Positions 41,161-59,939 of a stretch of 64,000 nt of DNA are shown piece by piece. The stretch comes from Candidatus Nitrosotenuis aquarius (GTDB taxonomy: Archaea > Thermoproteota > Nitrososphaeria > Nitrososphaerales > Nitrosopumilaceae). The notes below the pieces were generated by a model. That model was not told the origin of the DNA. It ran no database searches and saw nothing but the letters and a program-made list of their open reading frames with translations. The stretch spans positions 310,001-374,000 of the forward strand of contig NZ_CP024808.1 in the NCBI RefSeq assembly GCF_002787055.1. Reading direction: 5' to 3'. Made by a program: the position numbers and the translations under genes. Position 1 is the first letter of the stretch. Every line of letters begins with the position of its first letter.

Positions 41161-44100
41161 ATGCAAGTACAAGAACAGACACTAAAAACACTTGGCCCAT
41201 CACTTTTGGTTTCAGCAACATATGACAACCAAAAACAAGCAGCAATTCTGAAATTCTATGATCCGCAATCACAAAAAGTGATTTTATGGGCAGATGAAAT
41301 TGGCCATAAACCATATTGTTACTCTAAATTACATCCAGAGGAGCTATCGTTTCTTAACAACAGAAAAGACATCATAAAGATAGAGTCTGTCAAAAGAAAA
41401 GACTTTCTCAAGGACAAAGAATCCGAAGTATCAAAAATCATAGTGACTGATCCTCTGGCAATTGGCGGAACCCAGACAGACAAGAGCATTCGAAACATCA
41501 TAGAAACATGGGAGTCTGACATCAAATATTACGAAAACTATCTGTATGATCGAGGACTAATTGTAGGAAGATTCTACGAGATCAAAGACGGCAAAATACT
41601 CCCTCATGACTTTGAGGTAACAGAAGATGTTGCACTTGCAATGAAGAGCCTACTATTGGATGTAAACACTGCAAAGGGAATTGTAAACACAAAGGAGTTT
41701 CAGGAATATATTTCCCAGTGGGCAGAGCTACTCAACCAACCAATTCCAAAAATAAAACGACTCAGCATAGATATTGAAGTAGAATCTGAAATTGGAAGAA
41801 TACCAGACCCAAAGATAGCTGAAAAGAGAATCACTGCAGTTGGATTTGAAGGAACGGACGGACTACGACAGATCTTTGTGTTACGCAAGGATGGCTCAAC
41901 TGATGGTAAAAACGAGCTTCCAGAAGGAGTCAAAGCGACATTTTACGCACAAAATAACGAAAAGAAAATGATAGAGGACACGTTTAGAATAATTGCAGAA
42001 TATCCCTTTGTCATAACGTACAACGGTGATGAATTTGACATGCCATATTTGTACAACAGGGCAGAAAGGCTTGGCATCAAAAATTCCGACAACCCACTAT
42101 ACATGATGCGAGATTCTGCCACACTAAAGCATGGAGTTCACATTGACTTGTATAGGACAATGTCGAATAGATCATTTCAGATCTATGCATTCTCTCACAA
42201 GTATACTGATTTTTCACTAAACAGTGTATCTATGGCATTACTCGGTGAGTCAAAGCTTGACTATGGGGTAGATCTGGACCAGCTGACAAACTACCAGCTT
42301 GCCAGCTATTGTTACAATGATTCTCGCATTACATACAAGCTTACAAGCTTTAACAATGATCTGCTGATGAACCTTCTTGTTGTAATATCAAGAATTGCAA
42401 GAATGCCAATTGACGATATTGCAAGAATGGGAGTATCACAGTGGATTCGAAGTCTGCTATATTATGAGCACAGACAGCGAAATGCGCTAATTCCAAGGCG
42501 CGAAGAACTGGACGCAAAGTCTCAGGGAGTAATGAATGATGCAGTAATCAAGGACAAAAAATATCGTGGAGGACTAGTAATAGATCCTGTTGAGGGGATT
42601 CACTTTAATGTCACAGTAATGGACTTTGCTTGCTTTGATGACAAAACCGAGATATTGACAGTTGATGGATGGAAAACATACAACACATTAAAGAAAGGAG
42701 ACATTGCATTATCTGTCAATTTAAGGACGAATATTGTAGAAAATGACCCCATAAAAGACGTATTTAGGTATAATTACAAAGGTAAGATATTCAGAATAAA
42801 AACACCAAGAAAATTAGATTTTGTTTTTACACCCAACCACAGAGTCATCTACAATGCAAAGGTCGGTGGCAATAAATGGAAATGGAATAAAAAACTACAG
42901 GTTGAAGAAATACAAAAAATCAACAGATATCACATCGCATTACCATGTTTTGGCGAATGGGTAGGAAAAGAAGGAGAAAAAATAAAAATCAGTAATTTTG
43001 TTTTTGAGACCAAATTATGGTTTGAATTTCTTGGTAGATTTCTAGGTGATGGATACCTAAGCAACAGATCTATTCACATATATGAAAACATAAAAAATCG
43101 AGATAAAATAAACAATCTCTGCAGCATAATTACAAAGCTAGGTTTTATACCAAAAAAAACCATAATTGCAAAAAAACACAGTATCACCATATCCATACAC
43201 AATTCGCGTCTTGTTGAATCATTACGTGATCTTTTAGATGGAAAAACACACAGTAAAGATCGTCACATACCAGTCGAATACCTCGATTATTCAATCAAAT
43301 ACCTACAATGTTTGCTAAAAGGACTAATGGATTCTGATGGAAGTACAACTAAAGAGGGAGATAAAACATACTCCACAATTAACAAAAACCTTGCCGATAG
43401 TTTTCAACTGTTGGCATTAAAATGTGGATACAATTGTTCAATAAACAAAAGAATCAGTAATGGATTCGGAAAAAAGACTCGTTATTACTTATGTGTGTTG
43501 TCTGGATTTAGACAAAAAAAATCCTCGTTTGTAGTATCAAAACAACACCACCACATCACCACAAAACAATATGATGGAAAAATATGGTGTGCTAGTACAA
43601 AAAATACAACATTAATCATTAGACGAAACGGCAGGGTCATAGTGACCGGAAATTCACTGTACCCAAGCATAATCAAGGTTAGAAATATTTCATACGAAAC
43701 CGTCAGATGTGTTCACGACGAATGTAAAAAAAATATCATACCAGATACAAATCACTGGGCATGCACAAAACGAAATGGACTGACATCTATGTTGATTGGT
43801 TCTCTTCGTGATCTTCGCGTGAATTATTATAAAAATTTAGCAAAAAATGCAAAGACGTTAGAACAAAAAGAACAATACACAGTAGTCAGTCAAGCACTTA
43901 AGGTAATTCTCAATGCAAGCTATGGGGTCATGGGTGCAGAGATTTTTCCATTGTATTTTCTTCCAGCAGCTGAAGCTACAACTGCAGTCGGCAGATACAT
44001 AATTGTAGAGACAATTAAAGAATGTAAAACAGTTGGAATAGAAGTTTTGTACGGAGACACAGACAGTATTTTCAATAAAAACCCAACACGTGAGCAAATT

Positions 44101-44730
44101 CAAAAAGTAATTGAATACATCAAGAAAGAATATGGTGTTGATCTTGAAATCGACAAGGAATATCGATACGTTGTGTTAAGTAACAGAAAGAAAAACTATC
44201 TTGGAGTAACAAAAGATGGCAAAGTGGATGTCAAGGGACTGACTGGCAAAAAATCCCATACGCCGCCATTTATCAGAAATTTATTTACCGAAATATTGAG
44301 CATACTGTCAAAGGTACAGACTGCCCAAGATTTCGAGGCGGCAAAAAAAGAGATCAGCCAAAAAATCTCAACATGTGCAACCAAGGTTAAGGAAAGAAAG
44401 ATTCCAATTCCAGAACTTGCATTCAATGTCATGATAAGCAAAGCTCCATCAGAATACGACAAAACCATCCCGCAGCACATTCGAGCAGCCAAACTGCTAG
44501 AACAGCAACGTGAGATAAAGCGTGGTGATATCATATCCTATGTGAAAATACTTAACAAACCAGGCGTAAAACCCGTAGAAATGGCGCGCCCTGACGAGAT
44601 TGATTCTGAAAAATATATGGAATTCATGGAATCCACATTGGATCAAATCACATCATCGATGGATTTGGATTTTGACAGCATGGTTGGCAAACCAAAACAA
44701 ACTGGCCTGGACCAATTTTTCTGGAATTAG
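41161..44730 (+). CDS. polB: family B DNA polymerase with in-frame intein
   Basis: Replicative DNA polymerase; precursor of 1189 residues, about 848 after splicing. Exonuclease motifs are in LSIDIEVESEIG, ITYNGDEFDMPYL and the later YCYNDSRITY. Polymerase motifs are SLYPSI (A; split by the intein), LNASYGVMG (B) and YGDTDS (C). The last residues, QTGLDQFF, form a canonical PCNA-interacting box. The intein lies between residues 491 and 831, immediately before the Ser of SLYPSI. It follows the dCMP deaminase gene by six bases and probably shares its promoter. Confidence 0.97.
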   Translation: MQVQEQTLKTLGPSLLVSATYDNQKQAAILKFYDPQSQKVILWADEIGHKPYCYSKLHPEELSFLNNRKDIIKIESVKRKDFLKDKESEVSKIIVTDPLAIGGTQTDKSIRNIIETWESDIKYYENYLYDRGLIVGRFYEIKDGKILPHDFEVTEDVALAMKSLLLDVNTAKGIVNTKEFQEYISQWAELLNQPIPKIKRLSIDIEVESEIGRIPDPKIAEKRITAVGFEGTDGLRQIFVLRKDGSTDGKNELPEGVKATFYAQNNEKKMIEDTFRIIAEYPFVITYNGDEFDMPYLYNRAERLGIKNSDNPLYMMRDSATLKHGVHIDLYRTMSNRSFQIYAFSHKYTDFSLNSVSMALLGESKLDYGVDLDQLTNYQLASYCYNDSRITYKLTSFNNDLLMNLLVVISRIARMPIDDIARMGVSQWIRSLLYYEHRQRNALIPRREELDAKSQGVMNDAVIKDKKYRGGLVIDPVEGIHFNVTVMDFACFDDKTEILTVDGWKTYNTLKKGDIALSVNLRTNIVENDPIKDVFRYNYKGKIFRIKTPRKLDFVFTPNHRVIYNAKVGGNKWKWNKKLQVEEIQKINRYHIALPCFGEWVGKEGEKIKISNFVFETKLWFEFLGRFLGDGYLSNRSIHIYENIKNRDKINNLCSIITKLGFIPKKTIIAKKHSITISIHNSRLVESLRDLLDGKTHSKDRHIPVEYLDYSIKYLQCLLKGLMDSDGSTTKEGDKTYSTINKNLADSFQLLALKCGYNCSINKRISNGFGKKTRYYLCVLSGFRQKKSSFVVSKQHHHITTKQYDGKIWCASTKNTTLIIRRNGRVIVTGNSLYPSIIKVRNISYETVRCVHDECKKNIIPDTNHWACTKRNGLTSMLIGSLRDLRVNYYKNLAKNAKTLEQKEQYTVVSQALKVILNASYGVMGAEIFPLYFLPAAEATTAVGRYIIVETIKECKTVGIEVLYGDTDSIFNKNPTREQIQKVIEYIKKEYGVDLEIDKEYRYVVLSNRKKNYLGVTKDGKVDVKGLTGKKSHTPPFIRNLFTEILSILSKVQTAQDFEAAKKEISQKISTCATKVKERKIPIPELAFNVMISKAPSEYDKTIPQHIRAAKLLEQQREIKRGDIISYVKILNKPGVKPVEMARPDEIDSEKYMEFMESTLDQITSSMDLDFDSMVGKPKQTGLDQFFWN
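42631..43653 (+). mobile_element. intein with LAGLIDADG homing endonuclease inside polB
   Basis: In-frame protein-splicing element of 341 residues inserted in polymerase motif A between Ala490 and the Ser of SLYPSI. The N-terminal splice block starts with Cys1 (CFDDKTEILTVDGWK). The C-terminal block ends IRRNGRVIVTGN followed by extein Ser+1; the residue before Asn is Gly instead of the common His. Two dodecapeptide motifs, FLGRFLGDGY and LLKGLMDSDG, mark an apparently intact homing endonuclease. The DNA is visibly richer in A than the flanking extein, a sign of a different origin. Confidence 0.95.
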
Positions 44731-58190: not shown

Positions 58191-59939
58191 TTACTGTGAT
58201 ACTAGATACACCGCAAACTTGTTTTCTGCATCTATTGTGTAATTTGCGATTTTCTCAAACTTGTATCCTTTGATGTCTTTGACTTTTTGGTACAGTGATT
58301 CACCGATTACAAGCGTGTTTGGTTTTGCAAGCGAGTTTATCTTCGAGCAGGTGTTTACCGTAGAGCCAAAAATGTCATCGATTGCAGACGTTGCGACTAT
58401 TGCCACCCTGACTGGGCCAAACATTGCAGATATCCTATAGCTTACCTCAGGCAGGTTTTCTGCTCCTAGTGCCCGGTTGATTGTGGTTCTAGCCTCGATT
58501 AGTTTCATGCAGCAATGTAGCATTTCCTCAAATGGGGTCTGCTCTTCAGAGTCTGTCTTTGGGAAATAATACAGTAATGCGTCGCCAATGTTTTTGACTA
58601 CGACTCCGTGGTTTTGCGTAATTGCAGTTGCTGCCGAGTTCAAAAATATGGAATAAAACTTGCTAGTCTCCATGTCTGATAGTTTTGATGTGAGTTTTGT
58701 AGAGCCGACAATGTCTACAAAGCAGACGCAATAATTGGAGCTGTACTGGGAAAACTGTAGCAGTATGTCTTTTTGCTGCTTGATTATGTCCTCTCGCTCT
58801 TTGATTTTGAGAAGAGAATCCTGAATCTGCTCTGCCATCTGGTCAAATGAGCGCGAAAGCTGGCCTATCTCGTCGTCGGTCTTGATGTTAGTCCTGACGT
58901 TAAAGTCTCCGTTTGCTACTTGGTTTGCGGCATTTTTGAGCTTAATTATTGGCTTTGATATCAGCTTTGATAGAAAATACGCGGCAACTCCTACTACAAC
59001 AGTAATGATTGCGCCAAGGACAATTATTTTGTCTCGAAGGTCTGCTACTGGCTCAAAGACTTCGACTTCGTCAATTTCTACTATCATGCTCATCCCAAGG
59101 CTCTTCATGCAGTTTGATGCGCCAAGGACTGGCATCCCACGATAGTCGTTGTGTATGCCAAAGTAGATCTGGCCGTCCGCTAGGCAGTGCTTGAGTGGCT
59201 CGGTGTCTACTTTTTGCACAAACGGCGCATTTGGAATAAACCTGGACTCTGATATCATGTATCCATACTGGCTTACAAGATAGGCCTCACCTGTCTGGCC
59301 TAGGCCCTTTCTGTTTAGTAGTACACTGTCGATTTGGTTTGTGTTTGCTGTGATTATTGCAACGCCTGAAGGGGATTGGTCTTTTGGTTTTTCAAATATG
59401 GGTGCGGCAGTTACAATTTTTCGCTTGCCGTCGGCACCAAGAATTATCTGCGTAAATGGCTCTTTTGCCCCGCGAACAAAGATCGGATCGGACAGATAGT
59501 CTTTTTTGTTTTTCGTGTTGATGAGTGCAAATAATCGCTCTCCGTCAATTCCTACAATTTCCACGTTTTCTAGGTCGTCTAGGCCTCCAATGCTTGCCTC
59601 AAATGCCTGAACCTCGATTAAAAAGTCCATTCGTTTTTGCGCAATTGTCCCTGCAAGAATCTGCGCGTCTTCGATTTGGTTTAGCTCCGAGACTAGCAGC
59701 TTTATCATGGGGTTTGTGGTAATTACTTGCATTTCCTGGATTTTGGATTTCATGGTGCCTTCTATGGCGCTGCCTCGAATTGCGGCCTCGCCTATTAGCT
59801 GGTTTGTTGCCCGCTCGCCCAAAATTATGGTAGCATAATGAAATGAAAAGAAAATAGTCACGCCTATCCCAATCAATGAAACTGCCATGACCAAGGAGAC
59901 CAGCTTTTTGTCCAGGGTCACCGGAATTGGCTTTCTCAC
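58191..59939 (-). CDS. Cache-HAMP-class III nucleotide cyclase
   Basis: Membrane sensor enzyme of 582 residues. A first hydrophobic helix (about residues 14-36) is followed by an extracellular Cache-like sensor of about 265 residues. A second helix (IIVLGAIITVVVGVAAYFL, about 305-325), a HAMP domain (SKPIIKLKNAANQVANGDFNV) and a cytosolic class III cyclase domain (about 405-582) follow. Metal-binding Asp are in CVCFVDIVGSTKL and IGDALLYYF. It likely makes cAMP or a related signal in response to an external ligand. No receiver or effector gene is adjacent. Confidence 0.92.
   Translation of the reverse strand: MRKPIPVTLDKKLVSLVMAVSLIGIGVTIFFSFHYATIILGERATNQLIGEAAIRGSAIEGTMKSKIQEMQVITTNPMIKLLVSELNQIEDAQILAGTIAQKRMDFLIEVQAFEASIGGLDDLENVEIVGIDGERLFALINTKNKKDYLSDPIFVRGAKEPFTQIILGADGKRKIVTAAPIFEKPKDQSPSGVAIITANTNQIDSVLLNRKGLGQTGEAYLVSQYGYMISESRFIPNAPFVQKVDTEPLKHCLADGQIYFGIHNDYRGMPVLGASNCMKSLGMSMIVEIDEVEVFEPVADLRDKIIVLGAIITVVVGVAAYFLSKLISKPIIKLKNAANQVANGDFNVRTNIKTDDEIGQLSRSFDQMAEQIQDSLLKIKEREDIIKQQKDILLQFSQYSSNYCVCFVDIVGSTKLTSKLSDMETSKFYSIFLNSAATAITQNHGVVVKNIGDALLYYFPKTDSEEQTPFEEMLHCCMKLIEARTTINRALGAENLPEVSYRISAMFGPVRVAIVATSAIDDIFGSTVNTCSKINSLAKPNTLVIGESLYQKVKDIKGYKFEKIANYTIDAENKFAVYLVSQ

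Follow-up and report, generated by a model that had tools for sequence, protein, structure and literature searches.

An intein in motif A of PolB1

The window, by which we mean the whole 64,000-nucleotide stretch of DNA that was analysed, contains a polB open reading frame at 41161-44730 on the plus strand, which encodes 1189 amino acids and whose translation continues without a stop through an insert of 341 amino acids at 42631-43653. The product is a B-family polymerase that matches the NCBIfam archaeal DNA polymerase I, and Pfam searches returned DNA_pol_B and exonuclease domain matches in the exteins. The N-extein of PolB1 (41161-42630, 490 amino acids) comprises the exonuclease domain (PF03104) up to MDFA, and the C-extein (43654-44730, including the stop codon) comprises the palm and thumb with motifs B and C (PF00136). 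The insert itself matched LAGLIDADG_3 (E 2.7e-8) and Intein_splicing (E 7e-6), the latter match falling short of the curated cut-off. In homologous polB genes of the same genus, precisely the 42631-43653 segment is missing and MDFASLYPSI reads uninterrupted, indicating that the insert is not a chance feature of the reading frame. An earlier note, made from the sequence alone, had placed an intein in motif A of DNA polymerase B, and the exact coordinates, the intact frame and the absence of the segment from sister alleles bear this out. The note had the element interrupting the SLYPSI motif; the interruption is real, and the exact motif is DFASLYPSI, whose Ser directly follows the insert (MDFA/SLYPSI, where the slash marks the insertion point).

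Elsewhere in the window, the minus strand at 58191-59939 encodes a sensor-like protein with dCache, HAMP and nucleotide cyclase domains, a combination that to our knowledge is uncommon for an archaeon.

Splicing and endonuclease residues of the insert

The residues expected of a class 1 intein are in place in this in-frame insert, which sits at a precise site and is missing from homologous alleles: Cys1 (codon 42631-42633), T67-P-N-H70 as the TxxH of block B, Asn341 (codon 43651-43653) and the Ser+1 nucleophile (codon TCA, 43654-43656). Cys1 and block B belong to the N-terminal splicing (HINT) half, at approximately 42631-42945, and occupy alignment columns that are invariant or nearly so. The homing endonuclease domain, at approximately 42946-43530, carries both of the LAGLIDADG dodecapeptides that had been noticed earlier, LGRFLGDGYL at 43030-43059 and LKGLMDSDGS at 43315-43344, each with the acidic residue ahead of the last Gly that is characteristic of the LAGLIDADG (DOD) type. 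The two acidic residues, Asp140 and Asp236, are invariant in all three allelic copies, and the domain matches PF14528. The C-terminal splicing half (43531-43653) contains block F, YDGKIWC, with Cys320 at position F:4, and block G, VIVTGN. Asp is the commonest residue at F:4, followed by Cys (PMC4031507). Cys320 and Thr339 (G:5) would also fit a class 3 intein, a possibility that we ruled out on the presence of Cys1 and of Val, not Trp, at B:12.

An AlphaFold2 model of the intein, built from a 19-sequence alignment (mean pLDDT 89.5, pTM 0.88), predicts a HINT fold for the insert. Its best matches among solved structures in the PDB were the TliVMA intein (7qsu, E 6e-20) and PI-SceI, with E values ranging from 6e-20 to 2e-16; the endonuclease domain matched the folds of I-DmoI and PI-SceI. 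The best viral fold matches of the model were phage inteins.

The C-terminal half lacks both the penultimate His, which is replaced by Gly340, and the block F His. Penultimate His is common in class 1 inteins and not obligatory, and its absence is no bar to membership. The same double absence is found in several relatives. Since both histidines that help Asn cyclisation are missing, splicing could be slow. The TGN end before Ser+1 had been correctly reported by the earlier note, which held it to be unusual compared with HN; this second part did not survive comparison. Of 59 relatives, taken from viral contigs and from same-class genomes, 52 have Gly-Asn at the end and two have His-Asn. Most of the viral relatives were recovered by peptide patterns at the intein start, a procedure that did not select for the last two residues. 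Penultimate Gly is likewise found in phage class 1 inteins, among which the Bethlehem RDF intein splices, and changing its Gly to His slowed splicing (PMC5050341). On both counts, the Gly-Asn end is typical of the class and no anomaly. We conclude that the insert is a real, intact and probably active class 1 intein with a homing endonuclease.

Occupancy of motif A and motif C within the genus

The motif A intein occurs in three of the 15 genomes of the genus, which we take to be Nitrosotenuis, that could be scored (G000, G007 and G006), two further genomes being unscorable at this site. The other 12 have an empty site; intein-free alleles in close strains had been proposed as a check. G000 is the host genome, a single contig of 1,697,207 bp that is 99.97% complete, in which a search with the Intein_splicing family found no other intein. 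In a 400-genome sample of the class, the three genus copies were the only strong matches; the remaining ones were distant or partial, lay in other genes and were about 22-38% identical.

A second intein, starting with Ser1 and ending in His-Asn, occupies motif C (YGD/TDS) in G002, G006, G008, G009 and G016; its end is visible in G003, and it also occurs outside the genus. In G006, a single polB gene (L083, contig C129) holds two full inteins, one at motif A (340 amino acids) and one at motif C (327 amino acids). The polB gene of G003 (L099, contig C148) is fragmentary: it shows the last part of a motif C intein, and the match includes an in-frame TAA that may be an assembly fault.

A mosaic flank downstream of the intein

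Codon-aligned exteins form a mosaic among the polB alleles of the genus (codon numbers in this alignment are two above those of PolB, with two upstream residues kept). Outside a tract downstream of the intein, G000 is nearest to G015 and G002, and G007 is nearest to G011 and G009. Within codons 492-705, G000 and G007 are nearest to each other. This tract, which extends about 640 bp past the intein (43654-44292, limits approximate), groups the two as one clade with 100/100 support, against the host phylogeny. Placement of G000 with G015 and G002 was rejected in the tract (AU 6e-5), as was placement of G007 with G011 and G009 (AU 4e-7); conversely, the G000-G007 pair was rejected in codons 1-360 (AU 4e-27) and 706-850 (AU 4e-6). 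The clustering of shared sites was matched in 0 of 10000 permutations. The interval enriched in such sites spans 42244-44292, and its decisive part lies downstream of the intein.

The three carriers all use TCN for Ser+1, whereas AGY is found in all 11 empty alleles compared and in 22 of 24 PolB loci outside the genus. At eight other conserved serines nearby, the codon family never switches. No single silent change converts TCN to AGY or the reverse, so the most plausible reading is that the Ser+1 codon was carried along with the intein. Comparison of these alleles thus reveals a co-conversion footprint next to the intein. As both G000 and G007 depart from their own relatives in the tract, its simplest reading is an unsampled donor related to the genus. 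A search for a donor of the converted flank outside the genus found none: within the family, G007 matches best (94%), followed by a match of 89% from the same genus. In G006 the intein is present but the long downstream tract is not, which suggests that its copy represents a separate event.

The converted tract also alters the codons around the motif C site (44041-44082 and the G007 counterpart), which specify TDSIFNKN as against TDSLFVKN or similar. Both tract carriers are without a motif C intein, which some of their sister species have.

Mobility and alternative explanations

The element is very likely a bifunctional class 1 intein that splices and that homes into motif A with co-conversion of its flank. 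Cys1 would attack the Ala-Cys bond, aided by T67 and H70; the N-extein would then pass to Ser+1, Asn341 would cyclise unaided by a penultimate His, which is usually present, and ligation of the exteins would give MDFASLYPSI. The LAGLIDADG domain would cleave motif A of a polB allele that lacks the intein, and repair templated by an occupied copy would install the intein together with its flank. The ability to home, which the earlier note had expected, draws support from the patchy distribution, purifying selection and the co-conversion footprint; this sequence-based support for mobility is indirect but strong.

A different explanation is that the intein splices and is immobile, its endonuclease being inactive, and that an old ancestral intein was lost many times while ordinary recombination, which is known in archaea, moved polB segments between species. 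The long branch leading to these copies (1.22 changes per site) and dS values near 1 between the three of them would agree with this, as they indicate that the copies are not very recent, and in principle the tract could reflect recombination that was not driven by the endonuclease. However, purifying selection acts on the endonuclease part (dN/dS about 0.12), which keeps both catalytic Asp residues. Simple pairwise estimates between intein copies, which are rough with dS near 1, put dN/dS at 0.10-0.13 for both the endonuclease and the N-terminal splicing parts; in the C-terminal splicing half, which is the most conserved part of the intein, it is 0.03-0.10. Moreover, the exchanged flank lies directly beside the intein, and in each of the three carriers the Ser+1 codon has accompanied it. 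We therefore regard an immobile intein as improbable. Homing of a polB intein into a plasmid target has been described in Haloferax (PMC3024317). The GC content of the intein is 0.326 compared with 0.38-0.39 in the exteins.

Far less credible is a defective insert, with PolB not made as one protein and PolD carrying out replication so that a broken PolB is tolerated. The host (ESSENTIALITY) encodes one PolB and the PolD large subunit, the helper histidines are missing, and PolB is dispensable in some archaea, namely Methanococcus maripaludis and Thermococcus kodakarensis, although essential in Halobacterium (PMC3984812). Against such a defect, the reading frame has no stop or frameshift, the exteins are under strong purifying selection (dN/dS 0.04-0.06), and it is the C-terminal splicing half that is best conserved within the intein. 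Selection on the exteins shows that a working PolB is important over the long term. It falls short of establishing the earlier proposition that an essential host protein demands efficient splicing, given the presence of PolD and the dispensability of PolB elsewhere. A second intact polB, which would have made this copy dispensable, was sought throughout the host genome, and only the one PolB match was found. In most Thaumarchaeota, PolB1 is the only active B-family polymerase (PMC4104785).

Purely vertical inheritance, with the likeness of the G000 and G007 flanks due to convergent selection on a polymerase palm whose catalytic motifs lie in the tract and are open to selection, is equally hard to credit and already disfavoured: the grouping is supported in nucleotides, with the TCN/AGY serine codons part of that signal, and the tract rejects each of the two host placements.

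Relation to known inteins

In a tree of 63 inteins, the three genus copies group as a single clade, set on a long branch. The deep structure of this tree is weak and its bootstrap unsettled; the nearest group (96/88) comprises inteins of related Nitrososphaeria (L123, L116, L121, L015 and L125). These are Gly-Asn inteins whose hosts look like NAD synthetase and NAD-dependent epimerase by flanking motifs only. By both sequence and fold, the broad relation of the motif A intein to phage-type inteins is clear. No viral contig encoding anything closely related to the PolB C-extein turned up in a search, and no viral carrier of the polB allele was seen.

An intein with an endonuclease is a known kind of genetic parasite, and what this locus adds is an unusually clear natural homing footprint. 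Thaumarchaeal PolB1 inteins were noted in 2014 only for Nitrososphaera gargensis (PMC4104785). The alleles described here preserve a natural record, backed by statistics, of homing between species in which the flank was co-converted, with the Ser+1 codon as a marker; within the one genus, polB may hold the motif A intein, the motif C intein, both or neither. With this combination, the way in which adjacent inteins interfere with one another (PMC10643990) can be studied in organisms that grow slowly and are difficult to manipulate. We tentatively suggest, as a possibility short of an even chance, that motif A of ammonia-oxidiser PolB1 was invaded by a phage-type Gly-Asn intein lineage independent of euryarchaeal pol-a, and that homing moves long polymerase segments between species and can overwrite the neighbouring motif C site.

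The polB-a (Pol-a) inteins of Euryarchaeota, found in Thermococcales and Halobacteria and including Tko Pol-1, lie in motif A before SLYPSI and carry a LAGLIDADG endonuclease. The insertion described here fits the polB-a allele by site, falling in motif A immediately before SLYPSI, which we take to define that site. However, the euryarchaeal host is PolB3 whereas the thaumarchaeal host is PolB1, and the Tko Pol-1 intein presumably ends in His-Asn, in contrast to the Gly-Asn end of the thaumarchaeal PolB1 intein. The polB-a allele has been surveyed (PMC4071816).

Two inteins have been reported in the PolB1 of N. gargensis (PMC4104785). In the genome that we take to be this species (G146, 2,833,868 bp; L219), PolB1 has an intein running from Cys1 to CGN at WE/SDIKYHENY, in the N-terminal part, and a motif C intein at YGD/TDS, so neither lies at motif A. 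The first of these, with Ser+1, shares the host gene with the motif A intein, yet is a distant homologue, about 30% identical. It is placed apart in the tree, although a sister relation of the two is not rejected (AU 0.217), and an ectopic move between the WE/SD site and motif A is neither supported nor excluded. The Ser1 pol-c inteins of Nitrosotenuis and relatives share gene and genus with the motif A intein, and G006 has both; their Ser1 start, His-Asn end and motif C site nevertheless mark them as a different intein. The probable NadE and NAD-dependent epimerase inteins are nearest in the tree, yet occupy other host genes at about 27% identity. Finally, the phage Gly-Asn class 1 inteins of terminase, portal and other genes, such as Bethlehem RDF (PMC5050341), share the CFDDKTEI start, a block F with Cys, VRRNG and the Gly-Asn end; they reach at best 27-31% identity to the polB intein and a fold TM of up to 0.84, whereas their host genes and sites differ from polB motif A.
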